A DNA stretch of 49,538 nucleotides. It comes from a virus. Below are positions 173 to 34,012 of the stretch, in pieces (position 1 is the stretch's first letter; the number at the start of each line of letters is the position of its first letter). The position numbers and the translations under genes were made by a program. The stretch lies in the IMG/VR virus record IMGVR_UViG_3300023273_000596, positions 1 through 49,538 of that record. The stretch is one strand, 5' to 3'. A model generated the notes under the pieces. It worked only from the letters and a program-made list of their open reading frames with translations. It was not told the DNA's origin and did not search any database.

Positions 173-1681
173 TTAGGTTTGTATTAATTTGAATAATTTT
201 TTCTTATAGTCTTGTATAAACTGGTTTCTTGCATGTCGTATCAGAGATACGTCTACGTCCTGTATTAATGTCTTACGCATTATGTCAAAGTTTAAGGACG
301 GTGCCGGGAATGTATGGGTCCCTATTGCTAATAATCCATCATAATGATATCTACCACATTTTAAACTTTTTACTTCTTGTTCATTTGACCACTTCCAACA
401 ATCTTCAAAGTTCCAGTCCTCTCTTTGCCAATTTACAAGAGCATTATTAGTAACTTGGTTAACAGTTTTTTGGTCAGCCCATAGATAGCCTTTGTTTCTA
501 TATCCATACTTCTCGTATTCTAAATTAAAGTTACTATCAGCCTGATACATACCAGGCTTTTGAATAACGAATGCCATCCAGTTCCAACTATCTAGTGATA
601 TTTTGCCAGATTGCAAGTCTTCTGAAGTCCTTTCCAGTGATGATATAGGTTCGTAGGGCAAGCCTGCAATAAATCCACTATGCATTGACAAGTCTGAGAA
701 CTCTGTACGCAACATCTGTAGTGTGTCTATTACCTTTTGTCTACTTCCGCCCTTACCGATCACTGATGCGGCTTTAGGGTGCATTGTTTCTATACCAAAT
801 ATAGTAGCCCTTACACCTATGTCCTTCAGTATTGGAATACTTTGTGGATTGCGACCTAATAAATCTAGCCTCATATAACACCAAAGTCTTAACTGTTCTG
901 GTAGTGTGTCTGTTACTTTACATATTTGTTCTAGTTTGTCTACGTCGTCATTAAACGTATCGTCTACTACTGCATAATGCTTTATACCATAGTCCCAGTA
1001 TGCTTGATGTAATTCTTGTTTTAGTGCATCAAACTTCTTAACATATTCTAATTTCTTTTTTCCTAAATTTCTATGAAAACAAAACTTACATTTAAATATG
1101 CAACCTCTGGCCATTTCAATTGGCAATGTTGTATAATTAACTACATCCTCAGGTAGCCAATGCATTACATCAGACATAAAGTTATATGTTTCATTATGTT
1201 GACTATCAACTATAGTAATACCATATATGTTTACAAAACTATCCTTTAGTGGTTGTCCATGATCTAGATGATTCATTATGTTAATAGTACTGGTCTCACC
1301 AAGGCCTACCACTGCGAAATCGACATTTTTGTTTGCAAACTCTCTATGTGTTTTTGCTCCGCCTATGACAATCTTAACATCTTTGTTATATTTTCTTATT
1401 TCGTTTAGAATCATTTCCTCTCTGCTTTTCTCTCCTGAGATAAGTCCGTCCTCACTTACCCAAAGGAAAGTCGTACTGAATCCAACAAATTTTGTGTTAG
1501 GTCCTATAGCATAAAAAAATAATTGTTTGAAGTCTTCTTCAGTGAAATTAACTGTGTTTGTGACTACAAGACATTTGTAGCCTAGTTTGCGTAGTACATG
1601 AGCACATTTGTATGGGCCTAATGTTATGATGCTAGTAGCTGTTATATCATCATGGTCAGTTAAAAAGACTGCATCATACAT
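173..1681 (-). CDS. Radical SAM protein with N-terminal B12-binding-like domain
   Basis: This 502-residue protein has the architecture of B12-binding radical SAM enzymes. Residues about 1-150 look like a Rossmann-type cobalamin-binding domain, including an IVIGG strand and a GLGETSTINI segment typical of the domain end. The [4Fe-4S]/SAM motif CIFKCKFC (CxxxCxxC) lies near residue 194, followed by a TIM-barrel-like region with GIETMHP and GFIAGLP. The classical DxHxxG cobalamin-ligand motif is not evident, so B12 binding is uncertain. The substrate is unknown; this superfamily includes methylases, methylthiolases and cyclases. The gene sits between tRNA genes, so tRNA modification is a thought but is unsupported by any motif. 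The start follows tRNA-Ser by 14 bases. Confidence 0.85.
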   Translation of the reverse strand: MYDAVFLTDHDDITATSIITLGPYKCAHVLRKLGYKCLVVTNTVNFTEEDFKQLFFYAIGPNTKFVGFSTTFLWVSEDGLISGEKSREEMILNEIRKYNKDVKIVIGGAKTHREFANKNVDFAVVGLGETSTINIMNHLDHGQPLKDSFVNIYGITIVDSQHNETYNFMSDVMHWLPEDVVNYTTLPIEMARGCIFKCKFCFHRNLGKKKLEYVKKFDALKQELHQAYWDYGIKHYAVVDDTFNDDVDKLEQICKVTDTLPEQLRLWCYMRLDLLGRNPQSIPILKDIGVRATIFGIETMHPKAASVIGKGGSRQKVIDTLQMLRTEFSDLSMHSGFIAGLPYEPISSLERTSEDLQSGKISLDSWNWMAFVIQKPGMYQADSNFNLEYEKYGYRNKGYLWADQKTVNQVTNNALVNWQREDWNFEDCWKWSNEQEVKSLKCGRYHYDGLLAIGTHTFPAPSLNFDIMRKTLIQDVDVSLIRHARNQFIQDYKKKLFKLIQT

Positions 1682-1694
1682 AGAAATATTTACC

Positions 1695-1787
1695 TGGCGG
1701 AAGAGGAGGGATTCGAACCCTCGATACAGGTTATCCCCGTATGCATTCTTAGCAGGAATGTGATTTCAGCCACTCATCCACTCTTCC
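1695..1787 (-). tRNA. tRNA-Ser (GCU anticodon)
   Basis: Class II tRNA with a long variable arm. The acceptor stem is GGAAGAG/CTCTTCC. The anticodon stem CATTC/GAATG encloses loop CTGCTAA, giving anticodon GCU for AGC/AGU. The variable arm is about 15-20 bases (around ATACGGGGATAACCTGTAT). The T-arm GAGGG/CCCTC has a TTCGAAT loop. The discriminator is G at 1698 and the CCA end is encoded at 1695-1697. Confidence 0.95.
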
Positions 1788-1791
1788 GGTT

Positions 1792-1866
1792 TGGAGCGGA
1801 TAGTGAGAATCGAACTCACATTGTAGCGTTGGCAACGCCACGTAATGACCATTATACGATATCCGC
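1792..1866 (-). tRNA. tRNA-Gly (GCC anticodon)
   Basis: The acceptor stem GCGGATA pairs with TATCCGC. The anticodon stem TGGCG/CGCTA encloses loop TTGCCAA, giving anticodon GCC. The T-arm GTGAG/CTCAC has a TTCGATT loop. The discriminator is U, as in bacterial glycine tRNAs, and CCA is encoded at 1792-1794. It lies between tRNA-Ser and an upstream 123-residue gene, probably in one transcript. Confidence 0.95.
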
Positions 1867-1868
1867 TT

Positions 1869-2240
1869 TTATACTTCTTCTGCTTCTACATGTAAAACTA
1901 CAGGAACCCATAATTGATTAACCAACCACTTGTATTGGTTTGCACGATCTTCTTCAGTGAATCTAGTAACAGTATACAAAGGTCTGCCTAATTCATCTAA
2001 TATAAATTCACCTGGGTTACTATACTCTTCAGTATCTTCCCCAAGTATCAACTTACCATCTTCCCATTCTTTGTACAAGTGTTTTTGTATAATATCTACG
2101 TCACCTGCCGGCATTTCTGCGCCGTATCCTGTATCTGGCAGTCTATCCTCTTCTACACACTGTGTATAAAGTGAGTTAATAGGATATCTATGATCGTAAT
2201 CTTTTGCGTAACTCTCAATAACCTTATAAATTGTTGCCAT
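1869..2240 (-). CDS. Hypothetical acidic protein, 123 aa
   Basis: I do not recognise the family. The protein is acidic and soluble, with no signal peptide or membrane segment. It is rich in Asp, Glu and Tyr, including the segments KDYDHRYPINSLYTQ and EEYSNPGEFILDELGRPLYTV. It starts 12 bases after the ferredoxin reductase stop, with a GGAGAGGG ribosome-binding site, so the two are very likely co-transcribed. Small acidic proteins of this kind are common in phages as host-takeover factors, but nothing here shows a role. Confidence 0.8.
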   Translation of the reverse strand: MATIYKVIESYAKDYDHRYPINSLYTQCVEEDRLPDTGYGAEMPAGDVDIIQKHLYKEWEDGKLILGEDTEEYSNPGEFILDELGRPLYTVTRFTEEDRANQYKWLVNQLWVPVVLHVEAEEV

Positions 2241-2251
2241 TGCCCTCTCCG

Positions 2252-2983
2252 TTATTTTTCAACAAATGCTCTCTCAAAAACGTACTCTCCTGGTGTTCTT
2301 AAGGTACCCTCTTGCATCCCTAAACTTTCACACCATGACATAATGTCTTCATTGAATTGCATGTTGCCACAGATCATAACTCTATCTGTACTTGTATTTA
2401 TTTGTAGAGTACCTGATGATAGTTGTTCTGTAATACGCTTATCGCCTTCACCAGTCACAATAGGCACATATTCTAATGCACTATGTAATATCTCAAACAG
2501 CTCAGTGCCTACAAAACTTCGTGTAAGCTCGTGATTATAGGCAAGTTCTTCCCTATTACGAACACTGTGTACTAGTATAATTTTAGGCCAGCGTTCTAAT
2601 GTATCGATGTCACGTATAAGACTCATAAACGGAGCGAGTCCTGTACCTGTCGCCAGCATCCAAAGTACTTCACCATCTGTCAGTGCATCGTTACGCAGTG
2701 TACCCACACACTTAGGTTGCATTATGACTTCATCGCCTACTTTTAAGTTCTGTAGTCTACTGGTAAGTTCACCATCCTGTACCTTAACGCTGAGCCATTC
2801 AAGTTCTTCTTCCCAGGGCGCACTAACAACACTATACGCTCTAAGTATATTTTTATCAGGTGTCTCCAGCCCAATCATAGCAAACTCTCCAGCATTAAAT
2901 CTAAACGACTGATTACGAGTCGTTCTGAAACTGAAAGTTTTGTCGCCCCAATGATGGACCCACGTTACTTTTTCTTTATACAA
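2252..2983 (-). CDS. fpr: Ferredoxin/flavodoxin-NADP+ reductase
   Basis: This 243-residue protein matches bacterial Fpr in length and motif order. RAYS (residues about 49-52, within ILRAYSVVSAP) is the FAD-binding RxYS motif. GTGLAPF is the NADP-binding glycine motif near residue 132, and CGNM lies in the nicotinamide pocket region. The C-terminus EYVFERAFVEK resembles the tail of subclass-I bacterial FPRs. The enzyme moves electrons between NADPH and ferredoxin or flavodoxin, which radical SAM enzymes and some reductases need. Several radical SAM genes (QueE and two others) are in the window, so it may power them; that is inference. It heads a unit served by the promoter at 3011-3039. Confidence 0.9.
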   Translation of the reverse strand: MYKEKVTWVHHWGDKTFSFRTTRNQSFRFNAGEFAMIGLETPDKNILRAYSVVSAPWEEELEWLSVKVQDGELTSRLQNLKVGDEVIMQPKCVGTLRNDALTDGEVLWMLATGTGLAPFMSLIRDIDTLERWPKIILVHSVRNREELAYNHELTRSFVGTELFEILHSALEYVPIVTGEGDKRITEQLSSGTLQINTSTDRVMICGNMQFNEDIMSWCESLGMQEGTLRTPGEYVFERAFVEK

Positions 2984-3010
2984 CTTTATTCCTTTGTTAA
3001 TTTACAATTG

Positions 3011-3039
3011 ATTATACACTAAAAAACTAATAATCGCAA
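3011..3039 (-). promoter_or_regulatory. sigma70-type promoter upstream of fpr
   Basis: TTGCGA (3034-3039), 17-base spacer, TATAAT (3011-3016) on the minus strand, about 28 bases upstream of the fpr ATG. The -35 box overlaps the end of the metallopeptidase gene. Confidence 0.7.
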
Positions 3040-3512
3040 CGTTTACGTATATGTTGTATCCACGCATATATCCAATCCATGTCATGCCCTTTAGACTGTG
3101 CGTACTTGTGCTGTAATTGATATGCTTGTATTTCGTTATCTGTCCATTCTTTGCAATTTTTGGCTACACCTCTTGTGTGCCATTGTGCTACATGTACTAG
3201 TTCGTGATATAAAATAGAATCTCCTTCTGGAGTATCTAAGTCCACATACTTAGACAATAGTATTAGGTTCCATTTAGCGGCTGCCACAGCACCACATTGC
3301 ATCGTGTCAGGACATACTAACTTATATACTTCCTCATACGGAACATATACTATTGTGGGATAATTTGGAGTACCTTGTTTAGGTATATCCAGTCCAGAAC
3401 TAAGATGTATGTGCTTAAAAAGTAACTGTACATAATCGTAATTTATTACACCATTGCCTTGTGCGCTGGAGGATAACACAAACATTAAAATTATTGACAG
3501 TAATCTTTTCAC
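3027..3512 (-). CDS. Secreted zinc metallopeptidase-like protein
   Basis: Residues 1-20 form a Sec signal peptide (charged start, hydrophobic core, SSSAQG). H103-E104-L-V-H107 is a zincin HExxH motif. About 20 residues later NEIQAY provides Glu127 in the right place to be the third zinc ligand of a gluzincin. The protein is predicted to act in the periplasm. The start is GTG, overlapping the previous stop as TAGTG. Substrate is unknown. It could cut peptidoglycan-linked or envelope proteins, or modify a host surface factor. The neighbour upstream (3512-3829) is another small exported protein, so they may work as a pair. Confidence 0.75.
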   Translation of the reverse strand: MKRLLSIILMFVLSSSAQGNGVINYDYVQLLFKHIHLSSGLDIPKQGTPNYPTIVYVPYEEVYKLVCPDTMQCGAVAAAKWNLILLSKYVDLDTPEGDSILYHELVHVAQWHTRGVAKNCKEWTDNEIQAYQLQHKYAQSKGHDMDWIYAWIQHIRKRCDY

Positions 3513-3829
3513 TATGGTAGTCTCTTGATGCAGGCTTCGTACATGATGTCTCCTGTTTTAATAGGATCTTTATTCATCTGAAAGCCTTCGCAAGTGTACT
3601 CTTTAATAAATGCTATTTCGTATTCTGTTTCGTTACCGTGCCAAAATATCTTTATGTTGCCACAGTCTGTTGCGTGTTTTTGAATCCGTAACCAGGCACC
3701 CGCCGCTCCTAGTTTAGCTTGATATACACATTGTTCTATCGGAAGTAACTGATCAATATAAACTCTAGGCATTGCGAAAGAAATCGCCGAGTACAACATG
3801 GCGCATAACAAGGTAAAAGTGCGAACCAT
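3512..3829 (-). CDS. Small exported protein, 105 aa
   Basis: The N-terminus has a signal peptide (MVRTFTLLCAMLYSAISFA) with likely cleavage after SFA. The mature part holds four cysteines (C34, C57, C80 and C99 by count), suitable for two periplasmic disulfides. No family is recognised. Its stop overlaps the GTG start of the metallopeptidase by one base, so translation is probably coupled. An inhibitor, chaperone or substrate of the peptidase is possible but unproven. An AAAGGAA ribosome-binding site supports the start. Confidence 0.75.
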   Translation of the reverse strand: MVRTFTLLCAMLYSAISFAMPRVYIDQLLPIEQCVYQAKLGAAGAWLRIQKHATDCGNIKIFWHGNETEYEIAFIKEYTCEGFQMNKDPIKTGDIMYEACIKRLP

Positions 3830-3846
3830 GTAATTCCTTTTAGTGT

Positions 3847-3876
3847 AATATATTTATTAAATAAATTTAATGTCAA
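3847..3876 (-). promoter_or_regulatory. sigma70-type promoter for the exported-protein pair
   Basis: TTGACA (3871-3876) lies inside the first codons of the divergent methyltransferase gene. An 18-base spacer separates it from TATATT (3847-3852), about 18 bases upstream of the 105-aa gene. The A/T-rich spacer also contains TAAATA-type boxes on both strands. Confidence 0.6.
3858..3863 (+). promoter_or_regulatory. TAAATA late-promoter-like box before the PRMT-like gene
   Basis: TAAATA ends six bases before the ATG at 3870. No Shine-Dalgarno sequence is present between them. The spacing implies transcription starts at or next to the start codon. Confidence 0.5.
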
Positions 3877-4793
3877 AGCACCATCCTGTACAATCAAATA
3901 CATTGGTACAACACGCTAATATGCTTAACGATAGAGCTCGTAACGAGTGGTTTCAGCACCGTATTGAGCAAGTTTCTGCTAATAAAGTAGTGTTGGATGT
4001 AGGCGGTGGAGCAGGACTACTAACATACTATGCTTTACAAGCAGGCGCCAAACATGTGTACGTTGTGGAGTCTGATCCAGATATCCTACGCATTTTACGT
4101 GGTGTTTTGTCAAAATGTTTTGATGCTGAACGTTATACAATTATAGATAAAAACTTCTGGACTATTGACGTAGAGCAGTATATACCCAAAAACAGTATAG
4201 ATGTTTTTGTAAGTGAAACACTAGGCGGAGCAGGCATAGATGAAGGACTACTGACAACCTGGTGGTGTGCCAAACTATTTGCAAAAGAAGATTGTGTATA
4301 TATTCCTAACGACACAACTATAGAAGTTTGTTATATGGATACATTAGGATTCTTAGGCGATGTTCCTGATAACGCACAAAATTTAATCGAATCTAACTTA
4401 CCCAGCCAATTTTTAGATGCTGTGATAAAGACAGACGCAGAATATATTGATCTGTTTGACTGGCGTGATGTAAAGACGTACACAAGAGGCAGGACACCAC
4501 TAACAACCGTGCATAGTTTGCAATGGGATATACATAATTTACCAGAGTATAGGTTTGATTTAGCGTTCCCTAATCACGTATTTCCTATAATAGACTTTAC
4601 TTTAGATTTGGACAGAGGACTATTAACTTTCATACCTAAAATGGAGGATAGTTACTTGTATACGTTTGAACATACACACTGGTTAAAGGCTCCTTTTTAC
4701 TATATACCAGTCAAGGGTACATATAGGATAACCTATAAAAATTTAGGCACTAGTAATTTAGAAACGCAGTGGGTTATTCAGCGTGTTCTTTAA
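3870..4793 (+). CDS. Protein arginine methyltransferase-like (PRMT) enzyme
   Basis: This 307-residue class I SAM methyltransferase carries PRMT hallmarks in order. Motif I is VLDVGGGAGLL (residues 41-51), with the SAM-ribose acidic residue E67 in VVESDP. The double-E loop is SETLGGAGIDEGLL, with E116 and E125 nine residues apart as in PRMT1 (E144/E153). The THW loop is T269-H270-W271 (HTHWLKAPFYY). A beta-barrel-like half lies between. Known PRMTs methylate arginines in proteins; they are mainly eukaryotic. Target here is unknown (host RNA polymerase, ribosome or nucleoid proteins are guesses). The gene is on the plus strand among minus-strand genes, which suggests separate acquisition. Its 3' end overlaps the next gene by 20 bases. 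Confidence 0.8.
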   Translation: MSKHHPVQSNTLVQHANMLNDRARNEWFQHRIEQVSANKVVLDVGGGAGLLTYYALQAGAKHVYVVESDPDILRILRGVLSKCFDAERYTIIDKNFWTIDVEQYIPKNSIDVFVSETLGGAGIDEGLLTTWWCAKLFAKEDCVYIPNDTTIEVCYMDTLGFLGDVPDNAQNLIESNLPSQFLDAVIKTDAEYIDLFDWRDVKTYTRGRTPLTTVHSLQWDIHNLPEYRFDLAFPNHVFPIIDFTLDLDRGLLTFIPKMEDSYLYTFEHTHWLKAPFYYIPVKGTYRITYKNLGTSNLETQWVIQRVL

Positions 4794-4935
4794 CTAGTGT
4801 TAGTCTGCCGTTTTCGTTTACTCGTGCTTTGAACGTTGCACCATCTTCGATAAGCTCTTTCACATCTAACTCTCGGTCAAACATAATTGAGTTTCCCCTC
4901 TCATCGATATGGAACGTATAGTCAATATAAAACAT
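4774..4935 (-). CDS. Hypothetical small acidic protein, 53 aa
   Basis: I choose the ATG at 4935 over one 14 codons upstream because GAGGGGAG lies about nine bases before it. The protein begins MFYIDYTFHIDERGN and looks like a small beta-rich domain (alternating hydrophobic residues ending NENGRLTLVKEHAE). No family is recognised. A TAAATAC late-type box lies 19 bases upstream. Its 3' end converges on and overlaps the PRMT-like gene. Confidence 0.7.
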   Translation of the reverse strand: MFYIDYTFHIDERGNSIMFDRELDVKELIEDGATFKARVNENGRLTLVKEHAE

Positions 4936-4954
4936 ATTGTTGCTCCCCTCACTA

Positions 4955-4961
4955 GTATTTA
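4955..4961 (-). promoter_or_regulatory. TAAATAC late-promoter-like box
   Basis: TAAATAC on the minus strand, 19 bases upstream of the ATG at 4935, with the ribosome-binding site between them. Confidence 0.45.
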
Positions 4962-4975
4962 GTATTGGAAGCCAC

Positions 4976-5003
4976 AAAAAAGCCAGCCCTAAGTGAGCTG
5001 GCT
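4976..5003 (-). terminator. Rho-independent terminator after the peroxiredoxin gene
   Basis: A perfect 7-bp stem AGCCAGC/GCTGGCT with a 9-base loop, followed on the minus strand by a run of five to six T. It lies 18 bases past the peroxiredoxin stop codon and separates that unit from the 53-aa gene. Confidence 0.85.
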
Positions 5004-5021
5004 AATTCGTTCGACTGATGT

Positions 5022-5549
5022 TTAAGAAATGCTCTTTAAAACATTCTCTGGTGAACTTACACCGTATGGATCTGGATCAGCATCGGTTGCATCTGGTTCT
5101 ACAAATGCTTTCTCAACAACACCGTCGTTAATAACGACAGCAAAACGCTTTGAACGCTTACCAAAGGTAATGACACTAAAGTCTGCTAACATGCCTAGTG
5201 CATCTGCTAGTTCTCCGTTACCATCTGGAATTAATTTAACATTCTTAATGCCAAGATGTTGTGCCCATGCATTCATTACAAAACTGTCATTAACACTGGA
5301 TACATAAATTTCATCAATGCCTTTTGCTTTAAAATCTTCATATCCTTGCTCAAAGCCTGGTAACTGGTATGTTGAGCAAGTAGGTGTAAATGCTCCTGGT
5401 AGTGAGAATACAATTACCTTCTTACCACCAAAAAGTTGGTCTGTTGTAGTGGGTACGAAATCTCCACCAATTGCGCATCCACCGTCTTCTGGCTCTTCGT
5501 CGCCTACTCTGCACATAAATGTAATGCTAGGGATTTTTGTTTGTTCCAT
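5022..5549 (-). CDS. Peroxiredoxin (Prx5/PrxII-type)
   Basis: The 175-residue protein has the Prx5-family active site PGAFTPTCS with peroxidatic Cys58. A conserved Arg lies later in KRSKRFAVVI. The end FVEPDATDADPDPYGVSSPENVL matches the PrxII/Prx5 C-terminal pattern. It reduces hydrogen peroxide and alkyl hydroperoxides using thiol donors such as glutaredoxin or thioredoxin. Another cysteine (C25) lies in the N-terminal insert GGCAIGGD and could be a resolving residue. A phage copy could protect the infected cell or the phage's iron-sulfur enzymes from oxidation. A GGAG ribosome-binding site precedes the start, and the unit ends at the terminator at 4976-5003. Confidence 0.92.
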   Translation of the reverse strand: MEQTKIPSITFMCRVGDEEPEDGGCAIGGDFVPTTTDQLFGGKKVIVFSLPGAFTPTCSTYQLPGFEQGYEDFKAKGIDEIYVSSVNDSFVMNAWAQHLGIKNVKLIPDGNGELADALGMLADFSVITFGKRSKRFAVVINDGVVEKAFVEPDATDADPDPYGVSSPENVLKSIS

Positions 5550-5562
5550 TGTGTGTGTCTCC

Positions 5563-5811
5563 TTATCTTATTATTTTAATGTCACTTTCTGTCTCGATTA
5601 CAACTCTAGCACCACAACTCAGTATTTGTTTACCACCAATACCGTAAACAACCTTGCTGGGTCCTAGTATTTCTACTTCGTGACAGTACGTGTTCTTCTT
5701 TCCCTCTTTGATAGTTATGGTAGGTGCCACATCTATAAATTCAGGATCAGTACGTTGCTTTTTTAAGTTACTTTTAATTACGTTTTGATTAACATGAATG
5801 TATTTTTTCAT
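5563..5811 (-). CDS. Hypothetical protein, 82 aa, probable leaderless mRNA
   Basis: A small basic, beta-rich protein starting MKKYIHVNQNVIKSN. The core HEVEILGPSKVVYGIGG and the end CGARVVIETES resemble small conserved proteins I associate with T4-like marine phages; function is unknown. No other methionine fits the start. The TATAAT of the promoter at 5818-5846 ends only six bases before the ATG and there is no Shine-Dalgarno sequence, so the mRNA is predicted to begin at the start codon. It lies 13 bases upstream of the peroxiredoxin gene. Confidence 0.8.
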   Translation of the reverse strand: MKKYIHVNQNVIKSNLKKQRTDPEFIDVAPTITIKEGKKNTYCHEVEILGPSKVVYGIGGKQILSCGARVVIETESDIKIIR

Positions 5812-5817
5812 ATCTGT

Positions 5818-5846
5818 ATTATAACATCACTTTACGTCTTGTGCAA
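5818..5846 (-). promoter_or_regulatory. sigma70-type promoter abutting the 82-aa gene
   Basis: TTGCAC (5841-5846), 17-base spacer, TATAAT (5818-5823). The -10 box ends six bases before the ATG at 5811, which predicts a leaderless transcript. The promoter lies inside the 3' end of the HNH gene. Confidence 0.75.
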
Positions 5847-6306
5847 CACCTCTGACGTTCAATTGTTTAGCACGAGCCGCCTTTATTTTATCTTTTGCTT
5901 CTTCTGTGTGCTTCCATCCTTCACGACTTTTACGCCAATTTTCAATTTGCTCCGGAGATTTCTTTCTACCCTTCATTGCTTCACTACGTTTCTTGTTAGC
6001 AAGTTCTAGTGTCCCATCGGCACGTTGTCTTTCTACACGTTTCTTTGCGGCCTCTGAAATACGTTTACGTTGTTCAGGAGTACGTTTACGTCCTTTGTTT
6101 GCCATACCTTGTTTCATACGTAATATTTCTTCTTTGCCTATACGTCCACTAAGTCCTTCGTATGCAACTTTATCCTGCCAATGTCCGTGTTCTTCGTATA
6201 GTTTACGATGTGCTTCTGCATGTTCTTCTACAGTAAGTTCTACTAGGTTGTCAGGGTCATCTGTTCCGCCTAGATATTTTGGTATAATGTGATGTATGTG
6301 TTTCAT
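5827..6306 (-). CDS. HNH-type endonuclease with NUMOD-like motifs
   Basis: Residues 1-25 (MKHIHHIIPKYLGG, then DDPDNLVELTVEEHAEAH) match the HNH nuclease pattern H-H-x8-N-x6-H used by phage homing endonucleases. Two downstream repeats, GRKRTPEQRKRISEAAKKR and GRKKSPEQIENWRKSREG, are NUMOD3-type DNA-binding helices. The protein is very basic. I start at the ATG at 6306 rather than 14 codons upstream because a TAAATA box sits five bases before it and homology to the HNH pattern begins there. It probably nicks or cuts DNA at a specific site and is mobile or once was. It is inserted between the pqqA unit and the 82-aa gene. Confidence 0.85.
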   Translation of the reverse strand: MKHIHHIIPKYLGGTDDPDNLVELTVEEHAEAHRKLYEEHGHWQDKVAYEGLSGRIGKEEILRMKQGMANKGRKRTPEQRKRISEAAKKRVERQRADGTLELANKKRSEAMKGRKKSPEQIENWRKSREGWKHTEEAKDKIKAARAKQLNVRGVAQDVK

Positions 6307-6311
6307 ACATT

Positions 6312-6317
6312 TATTTA
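6312..6317 (-). promoter_or_regulatory. TAAATA late-promoter-like box before the HNH gene
   Basis: TAAATA, within ATAAATA, ends five bases before the ATG at 6306 and no Shine-Dalgarno sequence intervenes. Confidence 0.5.
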
Positions 6318-6353
6318 TCCCAATCGTAAGTTCGAAACCAAATAGCAACCAAT

Positions 6354-6376
6354 AAAAATGCCCACCGAAGTGAGCA
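6354..6376 (-). terminator. UUCG-loop terminator after pqqA
   Basis: A 7-bp stem TGCTCAC/GTGGGCA (one G-U pair) with a TTCG tetraloop, followed on the minus strand by TTTTT. It is about 30 bases past the pqqA stop codon and insulates this tiny unit from the HNH gene. Confidence 0.9.
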
Positions 6377-6404
6377 CTTTTGTATCTTCAAAAATTACTG
6401 TATA

Positions 6405-6476
6405 TTAGCGGTTAGCGATATACATTGTGATTTCGAAGCCATAACGCATTTCTGTGTATTCTGGTTTTGTCCACAT
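6405..6476 (-). CDS. pqqA: PQQ precursor peptide PqqA
   Basis: A 23-residue ORF that begins [11 protein letters not shown] and ends [11 protein letters not shown]. It matches beta/gammaproteobacterial PqqA along its whole length. Glu15 and Tyr19 (E-x3-Y), the two residues crosslinked and excised to build pyrroloquinoline quinone, are both present in the spacing of Klebsiella PqqA. AAGGAA lies nine bases before the ATG. No pqqB, C, D or E gene is seen in the window, so the peptide would need host PqqBCDE. It has its own late-type box, leader hairpin and terminator, so it is a monocistronic unit of about 180 bases. PQQ is the cofactor of methanol, glucose and alcohol dehydrogenases. A phage copy could raise precursor supply during infection. 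Confidence 0.88.
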
Positions 6477-6510
6477 GGTGATATTTCCTTTCGATAATTA
6501 ATTAAAGATT

Positions 6511-6529
6511 GTTGAAATTGTGTTTCAAC
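6511..6529 (-). promoter_or_regulatory. Perfect inverted repeat in the pqqA leader
   Basis: GTTGAAA/TTTCAAC, 7-bp perfect arms around a 5-base centre, between the late-type box at 6535-6540 and the pqqA ribosome-binding site. It could be a repressor operator or an mRNA-stabilising hairpin. It is not a terminator, since no T-run follows. Confidence 0.5.
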
Positions 6530-6534
6530 GCTAG

Positions 6535-6540
6535 TATTTA
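6535..6540 (-). promoter_or_regulatory. TAAATA late-promoter-like box for pqqA
   Basis: TAAATAC on the minus strand about 58 bases upstream of the pqqA ATG. It matches the boxes seen before many other genes here. Confidence 0.45.
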
Positions 6541-6610
6541 ATATAAGTATATAGAGAGTTTACCCTAAAGTACATACAGAAATTCATTAAAATAATCTAC
6601 GTAAAACTGC

Positions 6611-9314: not shown

Positions 9315-9808
9315 GGCTTCTCCTTAGGTACGTAGTTAGGGTTTGCTAAGTCTGGACATTCATTATTTGCTTCGCTTTTCTTAGTAGCCGCTATCTCATC
9401 TGGTGTAAGTGGACTGCCACTTGCGATCTCTAAACAGCGCATTACATTCTTACTGGCGTTGTTAATAATCTTGGTGACCATTTTAGTTTTACGAACTGCG
9501 GCTTTGTTTATGTCACGTTGCTTGCCAGTTGCTTCGTTTACTTTGTTAAGACGGTCGTTTAAATCAGCAATACTTTTATCGCTGGCTTTTTTACTTGCCT
9601 CAAGCTCTTTGCTAATTTCTTTTTGCAGAGCGATATCCTTCTCTTTTACTGCTAACAGTTGTTTTTGCTCTTCTACTGTTTGCTCGAGAAGTTTCTGATT
9701 TATTCTGGAGGTTTCTAAGTCTGAACGTAAGTTCTTAACATATAACGCTCCGCCGCCAACTGCGGCAACGATTGCTATGATTATTCCTACTTTAATTGAT
9801 GTAAACAT
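9311..9808 (-). CDS. Membrane-anchored coiled-coil protein, probable i-spanin
   Basis: Residues 7-25 form a single N-terminal transmembrane helix (VGIIIAIVAAVGGGALYV). Residues about 28-120 are a long coiled coil rich in Lys, Glu and Gln. The end MRCLEIASGSPLTPDEI resembles the C-terminal region of Rz-type i-spanins, which often have RCLELASG-like text. It would cross the periplasm and meet the lipoprotein encoded immediately downstream. A TAAATAC late-type box ends five bases before its ATG with no ribosome-binding site, so it is probably expressed late as a leaderless message. Confidence 0.75.
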   Translation of the reverse strand: MFTSIKVGIIIAIVAAVGGGALYVKNLRSDLETSRINQKLLEQTVEEQKQLLAVKEKDIALQKEISKELEASKKASDKSIADLNDRLNKVNEATGKQRDINKAAVRKTKMVTKIINNASKNVMRCLEIASGSPLTPDEIAATKKSEANNECPDLANPNYVPKEKP

Positions 9809-11751: not shown

Positions 11752-12120
11752 TTAATTGTATTCTGTCCTTCCGCCACCTAAGTCTTTTTTGTTTACTCGG
11801 TCGCCAGTGTTGTTTGCATCATACTGTTGATAAGTTTCTAGTACAACATGTCTACACACATCTTGGAACCAGTTGTCAACAATATCCTCGTCTGTTTTAC
11901 CTTGATATCCCGACTTAACAAGTTTTGCAACAAAGTAGTCATTCCAGTCCAGTTCAAAACTGCCGTTACCCGGATTTTCAGGATCAAGTTCTACTTGTAA
12001 TACGTTTACCCAAGGTTCTTTCTTATCCGTTGCTATGTCTTTTTCAGACTTCTTAGACTTGCGTTGCTTAGGTTTAGGTTCTTCTTTCTTTTTAAATACG
12101 TTTTTAATTTTATCAAACAT
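11752..12120 (-). CDS. Conserved T4-like phage protein, 122 aa, function unknown
   Basis: The N-terminus is a lysine-rich tail (MFDKIKNVFKKKEEPKPKQ) followed by a folded domain with WVNVLQVELDPENPGNGSFELDW and a helical end (VDNWFQDVCRHVVLETYQQY). I recall near-identical small proteins in marine T4-like phages, always unnamed. The start at 12120 overlaps the queE stop as TGATG, so translation is coupled; an ATG four codons earlier is less likely. Confidence 0.8.
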   Translation of the reverse strand: MFDKIKNVFKKKEEPKPKQRKSKKSEKDIATDKKEPWVNVLQVELDPENPGNGSFELDWNDYFVAKLVKSGYQGKTDEDIVDNWFQDVCRHVVLETYQQYDANNTGDRVNKKDLGGGRTEYN

Positions 12121-12995
12121 CAAGTACTCCAACTGTTACCCCAGATGTCTACATGCAATCTAGGACTGTATCTGTAACCCTTACTTAGTGCATATTCGGC
12201 TACTCGTTTGTTATTTTGGTTGTATGCTTCTGCTACCCCACCAACAGGCATGATATAGACGTTGCCATTTACTCCTGCTTTACGGTATGCATTAACTGCT
12301 TCGTCTACTTCAGCCATATGTTGATCGTTCTCTACTACAAACTTTAGGTATGTATTGCCGATCCAGGAATACTCTGCAACAACATCTGGCAGTATAGCGT
12401 CCTCCCACGCTTCACCACTAGCACTTAGTTTAGGGCTAACACTAAATGTTATGTTATGATAGTTGTGATTGTTTTCTTTCCATTTGTGGAAGAAGATTTT
12501 AAAGTCATCGTGTAATCTCTGTGTACCATTTGTTTCGAACGTAATGTTCTTCAAGTTACGCATTTGATCATGTTCTAGTAATTCGGAATATATACGTTGC
12601 CATCCTAACAGTGGTTCGCCACCAGTAACTACTAAGTGTATGTCGCTACCGTTGTCTTGTTGCCATGTATTATTAGGGATTAAATCTGTTAACTTGCCAA
12701 CAAGTGTGTCTATGTCGTATGTTGGCGAATACTTTTTAAACTTTGGATGCCAACTTGCATAACTGTCGCAACCTGTTGTAACTAGTGGCAAGTCTTCTAA
12801 CTTCTTATACTTGTCTGGATCTTGCTCTACTAACTTAATTATTTTGTTAACTTCGTCTGTCTTTTCACCTTTGGGAAGCCCAAAGCCTGGACATTCAAAG
12901 TTGCAACCAAACAGTCTTAGGAATACACTGGGTACTCCAGTAAATCTACCTTCACCTTGTAGACTGTAAAATATCTCACTTACTTTAAATTTCAT
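12120..12995 (-). CDS. queE: 7-carboxy-7-deazaguanine synthase-like radical SAM enzyme
   Basis: Begins SEIFYSLQGEGRFTGVPSVFLRL, the QueE signature. C31 and C35 lie in GCNFEC. The third cluster cysteine appears to be C76 in GCDSYASW, which mirrors the usual CDTxYxW, so about 40 residues are inserted between the second and third cysteines. VVTGGEPLL is the SAM-binding GGE motif; ITFETNGT and FSVSPKLSASGE follow as in the family. QueE converts 6-carboxytetrahydropterin to 7-carboxy-7-deazaguanine, the third step toward preQ0. FolE, a QueD-like protein and a DpdA-like transglycosylase are also encoded here. A GAGGA ribosome-binding site and a TAAATAC late box lie upstream. Confidence 0.9.
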   Translation of the reverse strand: MKFKVSEIFYSLQGEGRFTGVPSVFLRLFGCNFECPGFGLPKGEKTDEVNKIIKLVEQDPDKYKKLEDLPLVTTGCDSYASWHPKFKKYSPTYDIDTLVGKLTDLIPNNTWQQDNGSDIHLVVTGGEPLLGWQRIYSELLEHDQMRNLKNITFETNGTQRLHDDFKIFFHKWKENNHNYHNITFSVSPKLSASGEAWEDAILPDVVAEYSWIGNTYLKFVVENDQHMAEVDEAVNAYRKAGVNGNVYIMPVGGVAEAYNQNNKRVAEYALSKGYRYSPRLHVDIWGNSWST

Positions 12996-15827: not shown

Positions 15828-16344
15828 TTACTTGTGCCATTAAACTTAATACGGAACGTAACTGTCCACAAGACCTTATAGGACCCTTGCCTATGTGTGG
15901 TATGTTACTGGGAAATATAATCATTCTGTTAGGTTTAAACTCCACAGTGGTTATCGGGTCTGTATGTATAACAGTCTCTCCGCCCCAGTGTGGCTTAAAG
16001 TTTGGTGTGATGTGTAATACACCTGTATAATTACCGGGCTCTTGTCGGTCCCTGTGTACGTCACCGTCTTGCCCATAGGTATTACCACATAACATAATAC
16101 GTTCTATGTTTACATACTCACCAAAGTAATCATTAACTGTTCTACAAAACTTATCTGCTATTGATCTATAGAAAAAATTACTTATGGTGTCGCCTGCATA
16201 GTATATCTTTTGATACCACATAGGGAACTGGGTCTCTGGAACGCTCCGTTGACCGAATTCCCATTTAGGCGATTCTACTTCTTTTTGTAAAAACTCTAGT
16301 GTATTAGAGTCGTAAAAGTCGTCAATGACAACAGGATTATCCAT
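15820..16344 (-). CDS. 2OG-Fe(II) oxygenase (prolyl-hydroxylase-like)
   Basis: The 174-residue protein has the double-stranded beta-helix iron triad. H-R-D in DGDVHRDRQ gives the HxD pair and PSNIPHIGKGP the distal His. The following RSVLSL supplies the Arg that binds 2-oxoglutarate. GGETVIH and FKPNRMIIFP match the family core. Such proteins are frequent in marine T4-like phages; targets may be protein residues or nucleobases. It overlaps folE by eight bases. Confidence 0.85.
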   Translation of the reverse strand: MDNPVVIDDFYDSNTLEFLQKEVESPKWEFGQRSVPETQFPMWYQKIYYAGDTISNFFYRSIADKFCRTVNDYFGEYVNIERIMLCGNTYGQDGDVHRDRQEPGNYTGVLHITPNFKPHWGGETVIHTDPITTVEFKPNRMIIFPSNIPHIGKGPIRSCGQLRSVLSLMAQVNV

Positions 16345-17017
16345 GTCCCTTCATGCTCATAACGATGTCATAAAATTCTTTCTTAAGAGGAGCATGCTCG
16401 TCAAATGCACCACGCATAATTGCTGTGGTCATATCTGATTCATGTTCCTTAACACCTCTATGAGTCATACAGTGATGTTCTGCTTTAACTATAACAGCAA
16501 TGTTGGGAGTCTTTGCATACTTGATTAACTCTTCTGCAATCTGTGTAGTCATTTCCTCTTGTATCTGAGGACGCTCTGCAATGTGATGTACAATACGATT
16601 AAACTTGCTTAGTCCAATAACTTCATCTTCTGGGAGTACACCAATCCAACACTTACCTACAATGTTCTGAAAGTGGTGTGCGCAAGTTGATCTAATACTG
16701 ATTGGTCCGCTTGTGTACAAACTCTTGTATCCCATGTTAGGGAAACTTGTTACTCTTGGCCGAGGCACATACCTACCACCAAATGTTTCGTGTACAAACA
16801 TTTTAGCAACACGTTTAGCAGTTTCCTGTGTGTTGTGGTCATTGTCTGTATCGATTACAAGTGCATCTAATACGCCTTGCATTGCTTCTTGTACTTCAGA
16901 TTGCAAGTTGTCTAGTTCACCTTCTTGGATGTATTCACTAATGTTATCATTAGAATGGAACCTTACACCTGCGTCTTTGAGTCGTTGCCTAATTTGTTCT
17001 GCTGTTGATAGTTTCAT
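16337..17017 (-). CDS. folE: GTP cyclohydrolase I
   Basis: The 226-residue protein carries the FolE zinc site C112-A-H114-H115 and C183 (EHHCMTHRG). The family blocks HETFGGRYVP-like text, GLSKFNRIV and ERPQIQEEMT are all present. It converts GTP to dihydroneopterin triphosphate, the first step of both folate and 7-deazaguanine synthesis. With queE, a queD-like gene and a dpdA-like gene in the same window, the deazaguanine role is more likely. Upstream is a sigma70-type promoter with a TAAATAC late box in its spacer. A GGAG ribosome-binding site is present. Confidence 0.95.
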   Translation of the reverse strand: MKLSTAEQIRQRLKDAGVRFHSNDNISEYIQEGELDNLQSEVQEAMQGVLDALVIDTDNDHNTQETAKRVAKMFVHETFGGRYVPRPRVTSFPNMGYKSLYTSGPISIRSTCAHHFQNIVGKCWIGVLPEDEVIGLSKFNRIVHHIAERPQIQEEMTTQIAEELIKYAKTPNIAVIVKAEHHCMTHRGVKEHESDMTTAIMRGAFDEHAPLKKEFYDIVMSMKGHG

Positions 17018-22586: not shown

Positions 22587-22592
22587 TATTTA
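22587..22592 (-). promoter_or_regulatory. TAAATA late-promoter-like box before the 99-aa exported protein
   Basis: Pattern TAAATAC-TATT-ATG on the minus strand, with TAAATA ending five bases before the ATG at 22581. It overlaps the stop codon of the FG-GAP gene. Confidence 0.6.
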
Positions 22593-25013
22593 AAAGTTTC
22601 TTGTATAATTAAACTGCGTTTTATTAAAGCCGTAGCCATTAGAGTAAGCATCAATACTAAAACTGCTGTTAAAGTCTAACTGTTTCTTATAGCCTAAGCT
22701 CACGTATTCTGCGAATGTGTTTCTAATTTTGTAGTCAAATTCAGTATACTTGACAGTGCCAGTAAAGTCAATACTTGTTGGCACTCTTAGTGTTATCCCA
22801 CCATCTACTAGATAAGGCATAGTTCCTATAGCGGCTCTAAACCCATTTTTCTTCCAACTTACTTCTGACCACATGCTTGTTAACGAATTAACGTCAGTAA
22901 CCAGTCCAGGAGTAAACGATGTGTTTGTGTACATAGTACCAAGGTTAACGGTAAAATCCTTGTGCAAGTGTGTAACTACTGTTTCAAAAGTGTCTGAACT
23001 GTTAATAGTACCCCACATACCGTCCATATGGAACCAAGGATTGCGACCATTTAATACAGTATATTGTCCTTGTAAGTACCAGTCTTTAGCAAGTTTAATA
23101 TGTTGTAAGCCTAAGGTATAGTTACCTGACTCGTCTGTGGGACTGTAGTTAAGCATGCCGTCGTTGTACACATAATCAAAGTTATAGTCCATCCTTGTAT
23201 AACTTTCGTCAGTAAAGTTTACATCATACCAAGTATCTTGTTGCACAGGATTATGCATGTTACCAATGCCTATCTCAAATCCTCTACCTAAACTGTCTAC
23301 TGCTTGTACTCTGTCTAGTTCACCAAAGTTAACACCTGTTAGTGATCCTGTAATTGCAACTGTACCAGCTCTACCGTCTAGTGGCATACGTAATTCACCT
23401 ACAGGCAACAATGCACGTTCCAAGTCAATAATACCAACACCATGTATGTCAGGATCAAACCCTTCAAAGTCTGTAAATGCAGTGCCAGCCAATATCTGTG
23501 CGGCTACTTCGTCTGTAACATAAGGCCATGTCTGTTGAATAAAATCAATACTAGCCTGTGCTGTGGTACCACCTGCATCACCTAGTTTACTGGTATAGAG
23601 TGCTACCTTACCGTCGTTGAGAGTAACAGTAGTCACTAGATACTTGTCACCGTTTGGTCCTGTTAAGAAACGTATGGTGTTTAATACATTGTTCTTATTT
23701 GTTTCTAGTGCTTGTGCCGCTGTTGAGAAATCCTCAAATACATCTGTAAAGCTCTGTACAAACTTACCTTCTTTAGTTTGTAGCAATACTCTTGTTGACT
23801 CGCTACCATTAAAATCCTGCGCACTAAACAGTAAGTCTGTTAATCCGTCATCGTTAACATCTAATACTTGTGGGTTGTAATCACCGTTTGTAAAGACGTC
23901 CCAGTCAACACGCACATCATCTGTAACGTCAGTAAAACTAGCACCACCGTTGTTTTGTAAAAACTGTATTTCTGTTCTGTTTTTGTTGTCTAAAGGAGAT
24001 GTACTATTGCTGATAACAACAACGTCTAGTAATCCATCGTTGTTAAAGTCAAATGGTACCGCTCTAATGTCGTGACCACGTTCTGTTTGTGCGGGATCAA
24101 ACAAGTCATCATATATTGCTAGTTCGAAACGACTGCTGGGCAAACGTGCAAGGCGTGTGAACTCGCCTGTGTTAGCACCTGTTTGACTGAAGCTCATTAG
24201 TGTCGTGTCGTCATCTTCATCACCGTCGCCAGTTGAATCAACAAACACAAAAGTTGTAGTGCCGTTACCTAAAAAGTCTCCAATAGCCAAACCACTGTTG
24301 CCGCTGTGTGTGGTGTCTAGTTGTGTAAAGCCAGCACCACCGCCCAACATAACAACCATGTTACTGTAGCCGCCTACAACAACATCGTCTATGCCATCTT
24401 GGTTAACATCACCTACACCAATATCGTGCATCCACTTGTCGCCAATGTCATGGTCTTCACGATTGAAACTACTAGCGCCTGTATTTTTAAATATAGTGAG
24501 AGGACCAAAGTGTTCCATGTCAGTTGAATGCCCTACTGCCATGTCTTTGTTACCATCACCATCAAAATCACCAAACTTAAGGCTAGGCTCAGTTCCTATA
24601 ATGACATTGTCTGCGCCTGTAAACCAAGAACTGGTTCTGTTTACTAATTGGTCATCGTTATTAAATTCGTATAAAGTAATATTACTGTTTTCCCAAGCGG
24701 CATTTTTAGCATCCTGGTCAGCGGCTTCTCGTAGTTGGGTCGCACTCTGACTCATACGTCCAGCGATAATAACTTCTTCTTTGCTGTCGTTGTTTAAGTC
24801 TTCTACAAATATATCTGATACCGGAAGTGTATCACTGCCACTAGCGAAGAATTCAAACTCGCCTGCTAGTCTAGGCGTAGCAAAGTTAACATCAGGCAAT
24901 GCTGGGTTAGGTGCTGATATGGGGTTTTGTCGTACATTAGGTCCGCCTGGACCACCACCACCTCCACATGCTGATAGCAGTGACACACATACTAATGTAG
25001 CAAATAGCCTCAT
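22590..25013 (-). CDS. FG-GAP/VCBS-repeat lipoprotein with autotransporter-like C-terminus
   Basis: An 807-residue envelope protein. Residues 1-16 are a lipoprotein signal (SLLSAC, Cys16) with a Gly-rich linker. At least six FG-GAP/VCBS blades follow, with calcium-type DxDxDG loops such as FGDFDGDGNKDMAVG, VGDVNQDGIDDVVVG and FDFNNDGLLDVVV. Near residue 500-540 comes VTDEVAAQILAGTAFTD and HGVGIIDLERALLPVG, which looks like the end of an S8-protease autotransporter passenger. The last ~220 residues alternate like an outer-membrane beta-barrel and end in NYTRNF. No catalytic Ser-His-Asp core is seen. It may be displayed on the cell surface and block superinfection or mediate adhesion; that is inference. 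A strong early promoter precedes it. Confidence 0.85.
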   Translation of the reverse strand: MRLFATLVCVSLLSACGGGGGPGGPNVRQNPISAPNPALPDVNFATPRLAGEFEFFASGSDTLPVSDIFVEDLNNDSKEEVIIAGRMSQSATQLREAADQDAKNAAWENSNITLYEFNNDDQLVNRTSSWFTGADNVIIGTEPSLKFGDFDGDGNKDMAVGHSTDMEHFGPLTIFKNTGASSFNREDHDIGDKWMHDIGVGDVNQDGIDDVVVGGYSNMVVMLGGGAGFTQLDTTHSGNSGLAIGDFLGNGTTTFVFVDSTGDGDEDDDTTLMSFSQTGANTGEFTRLARLPSSRFELAIYDDLFDPAQTERGHDIRAVPFDFNNDGLLDVVVISNSTSPLDNKNRTEIQFLQNNGGASFTDVTDDVRVDWDVFTNGDYNPQVLDVNDDGLTDLLFSAQDFNGSESTRVLLQTKEGKFVQSFTDVFEDFSTAAQALETNKNNVLNTIRFLTGPNGDKYLVTTVTLNDGKVALYTSKLGDAGGTTAQASIDFIQQTWPYVTDEVAAQILAGTAFTDFEGFDPDIHGVGIIDLERALLPVGELRMPLDGRAGTVAITGSLTGVNFGELDRVQAVDSLGRGFEIGIGNMHNPVQQDTWYDVNFTDESYTRMDYNFDYVYNDGMLNYSPTDESGNYTLGLQHIKLAKDWYLQGQYTVLNGRNPWFHMDGMWGTINSSDTFETVVTHLHKDFTVNLGTMYTNTSFTPGLVTDVNSLTSMWSEVSWKKNGFRAAIGTMPYLVDGGITLRVPTSIDFTGTVKYTEFDYKIRNTFAEYVSLGYKKQLDFNSSFSIDAYSNGYGFNKTQFNYTRNF

Positions 25014-26543: not shown

Positions 26544-27282
26544 AAAAGTGTACCATGTTATCTATAAATTCGTAATCTTGTTCCATCGCTTTTAATACAT
26601 TCATATATTCTACATTATTTTCTCTTAATAGTCTATCTAAATGTTGTTTTACTTTGCCGTTCCAGGACCCGCCTGTTGATACATGTACAGGCTTCTCACT
26701 TGCTATATTGTTAGGTATATTTAGAATAGTCTTGAAGTATTCTGAAATTTTATAGTTAAGTCCTTGTTCCTGTCTAAAGAACACACATTTTTCTAACGGT
26801 ACGTGTTGCAAGAAGAACAATTGGCTTTCAGTGTGATCATCAAACCATATACGTTGTGATAGTAAATTTAGTGTTAACGGGTTACTCAAGTAGTCAAATA
26901 TACCGTCAGGGTCGTTAAAATGCTCTCCAAAATATTCTGCTATGCCACTTAACCATCGGTCATAAGGGTCTCTCATAACTACAATAATTTTTTCGATATC
27001 ATCAGGTTTAATCATGTCAGTAGGTTCCACTGCAACCCAGTCACCTAACTGTAAAAATCTTGGTTGCCAACCTAAATCCAACACCTGCGTTTTCATAAAA
27101 CTACTTGCACATTTAGGAGTATTAATATATACAACAGGTTGATCTGGACATTTGTAGCATTGGCCCACAGTGTGACCTAACCTACTGTAGTATGTAAGCC
27201 CTATGTTGGGAACATATCCTTCCAGTGTATCCTCTCCATCAGGCTTTACATTTACTTTAATTTTATCTATGTAGTATGTCAT
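26533..27282 (-). CDS. Sulfotransferase family protein
   Basis: The 249-residue protein has INTPKCASSFMKTQ near residue 54, the 5'-phosphosulfate-binding loop (PKxxSS form), and VVMRDPYDRWLSGIAEYF near residue 101, the 3'-phosphate-binding block. These features bind PAPS, the sulfate donor. The acceptor may be a host or phage glycan. It overlaps kdsA by 20 bases, which suggests joint use on LPS-type glycans. Confidence 0.85.
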   Translation of the reverse strand: MTYYIDKIKVNVKPDGEDTLEGYVPNIGLTYYSRLGHTVGQCYKCPDQPVVYINTPKCASSFMKTQVLDLGWQPRFLQLGDWVAVEPTDMIKPDDIEKIIVVMRDPYDRWLSGIAEYFGEHFNDPDGIFDYLSNPLTLNLLSQRIWFDDHTESQLFFLQHVPLEKCVFFRQEQGLNYKISEYFKTILNIPNNIASEKPVHVSTGGSWNGKVKQHLDRLLRENNVEYMNVLKAMEQDYEFIDNMVHFYGD

Positions 27283-28075
27283 TCTTTAGAACCTTATCTA
27301 TCTTAATGATAGAAGTAAGGACGTCTTCTAAATCTTCTAACCTTACAGCATTAGGCCCATCACTAGCGGCATTATCAGGATCGTCATGTACTTCTAAAAA
27401 TACACCAGCAACGCCTACTGCTGTTGCGGCTCTTGCTAAGTGTGGTACCATACTGCGATCACCACCGCTTTTACCATCTAATCCACTTGGTTGTTGTACA
27501 CTATGTGTGGCATCAAATACGACAGGATATCCCATCATTGCCATGGTAACTAGTCCACGCATGTCATTGACCAGTGTCTTATAACCAAAACATGTGCCAC
27601 GTTCTGTTAACCATATATTATGATTGCCAGTTGACTCTACTTTTTGTACAGCATGCCTCATGTCATCTGGTGCCATGAACTGTGCTTTTTTGATGTTTAC
27701 TGTTTTGCCTGTTTCGCCTGCGGCTACTAACAAGTCTGTTTGGCGTGATAGGAACGCAGGTATCTGTATAACGTCTACAGTATCGGCTAGTACTGCACAT
27801 TGTTCTGGTAAATGTACATCTGTTAGGACAGGGACGCCATAACCTTTTTTAACAGCGTATAGCGTATCCCTTCCCCGGTGTATACCAACGCCTCTTTTTC
27901 CATTTATACTGGTTCTATTCGCCTTATCAAAACTGGCTTTGAATATCCATTCAACTCCAAGCCGTTTGCATATGGTGTTTATAGATTCTGCCATAAAGTA
28001 AGAATGTTCCTCACTTTCTATCTGGCATGGTCCCAGTATAAATTTTACTGGAGAGTCGTTAGATAATTTAATCAC
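27263..28075 (-). CDS. kdsA: 3-deoxy-D-manno-octulosonate 8-phosphate synthase
   Basis: A complete 270-residue KdsA. FILGPCQIESEEH is the start signature with the metal-binding Cys; FKASFDKANRTS and VGIHRG bind phosphoenolpyruvate and arabinose-5-phosphate; GVPVLTDVH, IQIPAFLSRQTDLL, TERGTCFGY, VVFDATHSVQQPSG and GVFLEVHDDPDNA complete the barrel and metal site. It makes KDO-8-P, the precursor of the LPS inner-core sugar KDO. The set of blocks is intact, so it is probably active. Phages rarely carry it. It is coupled to the clamp gene upstream (4-base overlap). Confidence 0.95.
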   Translation of the reverse strand: MIKLSNDSPVKFILGPCQIESEEHSYFMAESINTICKRLGVEWIFKASFDKANRTSINGKRGVGIHRGRDTLYAVKKGYGVPVLTDVHLPEQCAVLADTVDVIQIPAFLSRQTDLLVAAGETGKTVNIKKAQFMAPDDMRHAVQKVESTGNHNIWLTERGTCFGYKTLVNDMRGLVTMAMMGYPVVFDATHSVQQPSGLDGKSGGDRSMVPHLARAATAVGVAGVFLEVHDDPDNAASDGPNAVRLEDLEDVLTSIIKIDKVLKNDILHR

Positions 28076-33729: not shown

Positions 33730-33730
33730 A

Positions 33731-34012
33731 TTACCACCATCCCGATGCCACACCATATCCAAATACGTTAACAAATCCAAAGTATATTGTCAACATTGTT
33801 GGAAATAAAATTCTTCTTCTAATATACCCCAATGCACCTGTTACACTGCCCACAAAAAAAGCAGGATATATTGCTCGCATGTCTGGAGCATCAGCAGTAA
33901 ACGCTAACATGAAACTAGCACTGACTGTAGATACAAATGCAACTAATTCTAGGTAAAATGCAATGGGGTCACTTTTATAACTGTCTACGGCAAATTGCCG
34001 GATAGATTTCAA
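33731..34012 (-). CDS. Small membrane protein, 93 aa
   Basis: Two or three predicted membrane helices: residues about 19-38 (FYLELVAFVSTVSASFMLAF), 47-62 (AIYPAFFVGSVTGALGY) and 70-90 (PTMLTIYFGFVNVFGYGV). No family is recognised. It overlaps the dsbA-like gene by four bases and is followed one base later by the radical SAM start. Confidence 0.75.
   Translation of the reverse strand: MKSIRQFAVDSYKSDPIAFYLELVAFVSTVSASFMLAFTADAPDMRAIYPAFFVGSVTGALGYIRRRILFPTMLTIYFGFVNVFGYGVASGWW

Follow-up and report, generated by a model that had tools for sequence, protein, structure and literature searches.

Can a phage profit from a gene that encodes a single peptide of 23 residues, and is that peptide PqqA, the precursor of PQQ? 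The question is raised by a locus in a 49,538-nt stretch of viral DNA (IMG/VR record IMGVR_UViG_3300023273_000596), the whole of which is referred to here as the window. An earlier note, made from the letters of the sequence, had described the locus as a phage-borne pqqA in a miniature transcription unit of its own, in a window devoid of pqqBCDE, and had proposed that it supplies the enzymes of the host.

The pqqA unit and the identity of its peptide

The features of the locus are collected in Table 1. The ORF, its sequence, its strand and the E-x3-Y spacing were all as the earlier note had described them, with Glu15 and Tyr19 in place, the two residues between which PqqE forms the cross-link in known PqqA. 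The claimed identity also held, as the 23-residue peptide exceeded the curated cut-offs of both models for the family (TIGR02107, 45.1 bits vs. a cut-off of 20, E=6e-12; PF08042, 36.3 bits vs. 21.1, E=5e-9). ORF 6405-6476 was the sole PqqA match within the 49.5-kb record. PqqA peptides are about 22-25 residues long, a range that accommodates the window peptide (23 residues) and the other viral copies (23-25 residues). The window peptide resembles the PF08042/TIGR02107 family in sequence, length, E-x3-Y spacing and WT-P-MR-GFE-TMY core; the viral copy differs in its genomic setting, as no pqqB-E was found in the same virus. With both curated models passed, the sequence identifies the window peptide as PqqA and excludes a chance match. 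No family matching the PqqA peptide was found in PHROGs v4.

Table 1. Coordinates of the pqqA unit and of the adjoining HNH ORF in the window.
Feature	Positions	Strand	Remarks
pqqA ORF	6405..6476	(-)	23 codons + stop
Codons 15-19 (E-I-T-M-Y), holding Glu15 and Tyr19	6420..6434	(-)	From the sequence; invariant in the 218 viral copies listed
Ribosome-binding site AAAGGAA	6485..6491	(-)	8 nt 5′ of ATG; kept in relatives L212 and L215
Leader hairpin GUUGAAA-CACAA-UUUCAAC, 7 bp	6511..6529	(-)	At leader start; predicted by folding
Late-promoter-like box TAAATAC, within ATTAAATACTAG	6534..6540	(-)	From position statistics and relatives
UUCG-loop intrinsic terminator hairpin, 12 bp	6354..6381	(-)	U tract runs on to about 6350
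HNH endonuclease ORF, outside the pqqA unit	5827..6348	(-)	PF01844; directly downstream of the terminator

All elements of the separate unit proposed earlier (the TAAATAC box, the leader hairpin, AAAGGAA and the UUCG terminator) were located, and the unit as a whole folded better than shuffled sequences (z=-3.3). Three relatives retain both the ORF and the terminator, and the core stem and loop of the terminator are identical in all aligned sequences. In relative L213, the ribosome-binding site reads GAGGAGAA and the leader hairpin occupies the same place with different bases (GUGUUAGA...UCUAACAC), while L215 carries a weaker version of the hairpin with G-U pairs. Because just three clearly different sequences are compared, conservation of the leader hairpin by base replacement across relatives can be called suggestive only. 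Among viral pqqA copies at large, a Shine-Dalgarno sequence was seen in nearly all and a terminator in many.

On the late-type character ascribed to the box, the observations point both ways. On the minus strand, 9 of 15 copies of TAAATAC lie at most 70 nt upstream of minus-strand genes, which places it at the top of 105 same-letter permutations; its total in the window, at 18 copies vs. 15.4 expected, is not above chance. The box of pqqA is present in L212 and L215 and absent in L213, and no exact match to the T4-type late promoter, TATAAATA, occurs in the window.

Positions 5828-6354 of the window are absent from contig L130, which is elsewhere >99% identical to it. Since the HNH ORF is missing from this near-identical contig, it is probably a mobile insertion, and one that looks recent. 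An HNH homologue is found at the corresponding place in L213; none is found in L215.

Phage carriers of pqqA

Genes of the window match phage DNA polymerase (656.7 bits), exonuclease and endolysin families, and the nearest named polymerases are those of the jumbo phages Phosso (51%) and Atu_ph07 (46%). Given these polymerases and relatives of up to 289 kb, the window represents part of a large phage genome. Among IMG/VR relatives with polymerase identities of 78-88%, pqqA is present in contigs of 93, 141 and 289 kb. Its occurrence is patchy, and several long contigs at about 77% polymerase identity are without it. As a host-pathway gene inside a genuine phage genome, and one that is also found in cultured phages, pqqA qualifies as an AMG. 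Other genes of the window include an 807-aa lipoprotein-like ORF that contains FG-GAP repeats and matches no PHROG (22590-25013), a KDO-8-phosphate synthase above its cut-off (27263-28075), and FolE- and QueE-like genes below their equivalog cut-offs (16337-17017 and 12120-12995).

A tblastn search for pqqA over 50,697 phage records returned, as true phage matches, nine Methylophilales phage genomes (MEP401, MEP402, MEP301, Venkman, P19250A and four Melnitz isolates) and one uncultured spring virus; further Methylophilales isolates in NCBI (MEP431-434, HIM624-A, phiMB624-A and Venkman EXVC038S) stand outside the count of nine. As Methylophilales phages, these carriers are phages of methylotrophs that use PQQ. 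The gene is unannotated in MEP401, MEP402, MEP301, Venkman and P19250A, and the annotation of the Melnitz isolates and of the spring virus gives instead an ORF on the opposite strand. Viral pqqA has probably been overlooked because it is only 23 codons long. The antisense “hypothetical proteins” that lie over pqqA at 2961-3056 of the Melnitz-1 locus and at 2067-2195 of MW202481.1 were called on the wrong strand.

IMG/VR was searched for pqqA with degenerate DNA patterns. The first scan gave at least 120 contigs with pqqA, and a scan for peptides like that of the window gave 98. By these pattern matches, pqqA is present in about 200 or more IMG/VR contigs belonging to several unrelated phage types, with carriers that span the jumbo-phage group, a T4-like member of the Kyanoviridae, the Zobellviridae and other small tailed phages. 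In many podovirus-like contigs (loci L341-L438), pqqA lies directly 5′ of a tail-fibre-like gene (MAI[YF]RG[PA]GG[SP]GDATTDAA...), which resembles those of T7-like marine podoviruses and has its nearest counterparts in Pelagibacter and Roseobacter phages.

Two records named Acinetobacter phage MD-2021a (CAKLQF020000010.1 and CAKLQH020000055.1) also matched pqqA. One of the two was inspected: CAKLQF020000010.1 contains ppk and a complete bacterial pqqABCDE operon, and both matches were for this reason set aside as bacterial DNA. Records of this sort can mislead surveys of viral genes. They are also what could be said in favour of a chance ORF or of host contamination of the window contig, a reading with next to no probability and one refuted by the TIGR02107 match (E=6e-12), by the same phage-contig genes flanking pqqA in independent contigs, by the lack of pqqB-E near pqqA and by the copies in cultured phage genomes.

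Orphan state and selection

The earlier claim that pqqBCDE are absent from the window was borne out, as queries for PqqB, PqqC, PqqD and PqqE found none there, in the 218 viral loci listed or in seven phage loci; the same queries recovered the host operons in a control set. No PqqE match above the cut-off was obtained in 50 long viral records or in relatives of the window of up to 289 kb. Weak matches to PqqE in five viral records fell far below the cut-off, and control genomes give such matches too. Since no pqqB-E was found, the window locus is an orphan pqqA and not a pqq operon. Three radical-SAM ORFs of the window were considered as PqqE substitutes and rejected, there being no PqqE match in the record: ORF 32686-33780 is a twitch-domain radical SAM protein, ORF 12120-12995 is QueE-like (below cut-off), and ORF 173-1681 resembles B12-binding radical SAM families (below cut-off).

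No PQQ-propeller domain was detected in the window. A PQQ alcohol dehydrogenase was found in one of the 50 long viral records (G065, IMGVR_UViG_3300025120_009955); 15 relatives and isolates gave none. G065 is a 72-kb phage contig with structural, ligase and ribonucleotide reductase genes, and its PQQ dehydrogenase, of the methanol/ethanol family, scored 608 bits vs. a cut-off of 480. From its gene complement, G065 is read as a phage with a small methylotrophy module. At positions 1490-6284 of its locus, L440, the PQQ dehydrogenase precedes formate dehydrogenase alpha, and pqqA lies about 3 kb further on (~9388-9459). G065 also carries nrdA, dnaK and groEL.

Conservation of E15 and Y19 in relatives, under purifying selection, had been named in the earlier note as a check on its reading. 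A second IMG/VR scan, in which codons 15 and 19 were left free, returned the same loci (at least 120), and a third left residue 15 and residues 17-23 free. Glu15 and Tyr19 were kept in 120/120 and 98/98 of the viral copies listed (218/218), in searches that left their codons free. At free codons, pN/pS was 0.29 in set 1 (107 distinct sequences) and 0.20 in set 2 (39 distinct sequences); at residues 15 and 19 it was 0, with silent changes common there, chiefly TAT/TAC. The selection argument is built on the free codons alone, other columns fixed by the search patterns being excluded. Both parts of the check came out in favour of the reading, and the ratios indicate strong purifying selection on the peptide throughout its viral carriers. 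Among 129 cellular matches, one chromosomal pqqA-like copy, in a Methylotenera MAG, has Tyr19 replaced by Cys; this sole case would reflect either decay of the copy or an error.

Genomes of Methylophilales, Methylophaga and Burkholderiales commonly encode peptides of the viral type. Candidate host genomes contain 1-7 pqqA copies each (n=19), and PQQ alcohol dehydrogenases were present in 5/5 of those checked. The closest cellular peptide, from the betaproteobacterial MAG TMED22, matches at 20/22 residues, and its gene is followed by pqqB; because 23 residues are too few to fix a host, none can be firmly assigned from the peptide. In a methylotroph, pqqA copies outside the operon are expressed (PMC9851590). 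Such chromosomal orphans (e.g. pqqA3-5, PMC9851590) are, like the phage gene, single genes that draw on enzymes encoded elsewhere; the phage gene differs in being virus-borne, with a late-type box and terminator of its own and with the enzymes in another genome.

Proposed role and precedents

Taken from the sequences, the peptide is PqqA under purifying selection, with expression signals of its own that are predicted, and it is unaccompanied by pqqB-E. We consider it very likely that the locus holds a true orphan pqqA, an AMG of a large phage carried on its own short and probably late mRNA, which provides precursor for host PqqBCDE. Feeding of the host enzymes by the phage peptide is the most likely mechanism. 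Host PqqD and PqqE would bind the peptide, Glu15 would be cross-linked to Tyr19, and host proteases together with PqqB and PqqC would complete PQQ; dehydrogenases that depend on PQQ (for methanol and other alcohols) could thereby keep their cofactor during the shutdown of host gene expression.

Each PQQ costs one PqqA peptide, whereas PqqB-E turn over and can be used again. Among single genes, the one for the substrate (72 nt) is therefore the cheapest contribution open to a phage. In Acetobacter, overexpression of pqqAB raised PQQ by 29% (PMC7936290); against this 29%, full pqqABCDE gave an 8-fold rise, so that PqqA need not be what limits PQQ in the hosts of these phages.

Two other readings are about equally improbable. 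The peptide might imitate PqqA and so occupy or divert host PqqD/PqqE, or it might be cut to a product other than PQQ, so that PQQ metabolism is lowered or redirected. Short RiPP precursors can, as a matter of general knowledge, be competitive substrates. For an inhibitor, however, there is no need to retain the cross-linked pair, and the 218 copies listed show no variation at E15 or Y19; several phage PqqA peptides are letter-for-letter those of Methylophilaceae hosts, and the G065 phage brings a PQQ dehydrogenase of its own and hence needs PQQ. Alternatively, pqqA might be a host-derived passenger with little effect on infection, as its patchiness among polymerase relatives and the many dispersed host copies, which make it easy to acquire, would allow. 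Such a passenger is hard to reconcile with purifying selection across many lineages, with signals that are retained in the jumbo-phage group across about 20% polymerase divergence, and with the recurrence of the gene in unrelated phage types.

Beyond the window, the supply of precursor to host enzymes can be framed more generally. Orphan pqqA is, we think, likely to be a hidden and repeatedly acquired AMG in phages of methylotrophs and other PQQ-makers, from small podoviruses to jumbo phages, which supplies a consumable ribosomal peptide and not an enzyme. The AMGs of marine myophages (photosystem, MazG, PhoH) are likewise host-type genes in lytic phages that probably aid host metabolism; they provide an enzyme or protein subunit, in contrast to the consumable peptide substrate given by pqqA.

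Methanol from algae is linked to CO2 by methylotrophs, OM43 among them, and its oxidation requires PQQ. If many methylotroph phages bring the PQQ precursor with them, viruses exert a control over marine C1 metabolism that has escaped notice, 23-codon ORFs being skipped by gene callers and PHROGs v4 lacking a matching family.

The statement in the earlier note that there was no established description in phages has to be withdrawn. A 2020 study of the Lake Baikal virome reported PqqA and methanol dehydrogenase in one methylophage population, VP_266 (PMC7678222), and pqqA is among the viral genes reported from sediments (PMC13188868); because of these two reports, viral pqqA is not new in kind. 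VP_266 likewise encodes PqqA, with a proposed support for host methanol oxidation. As described, it is a single freshwater population from a metagenome, with a methanol dehydrogenase gene as well, whereas the window holds an orphan pqqA on a piece of a jumbo phage, and the gene turns up again in many kinds of phage, cultured methylophages among them. The papers on Melnitz, MEP401/402 and Venkman (PMC9004378, PMC10580990 and PMC8163748) name no pqqA, and in the open-access literature searched we found neither so broad a distribution nor the orphan pattern, and neither cultured methylophages nor a jumbo phage as carriers. These four aspects are what we regard as new, viral pqqA as such being already known. 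Cultured phage-host pairs with pqqA (Venkman/H5P1, Melnitz/H5P1, MEP301/FZCC2181 and MEP401/FZCC0133) make this tiny gene directly testable.
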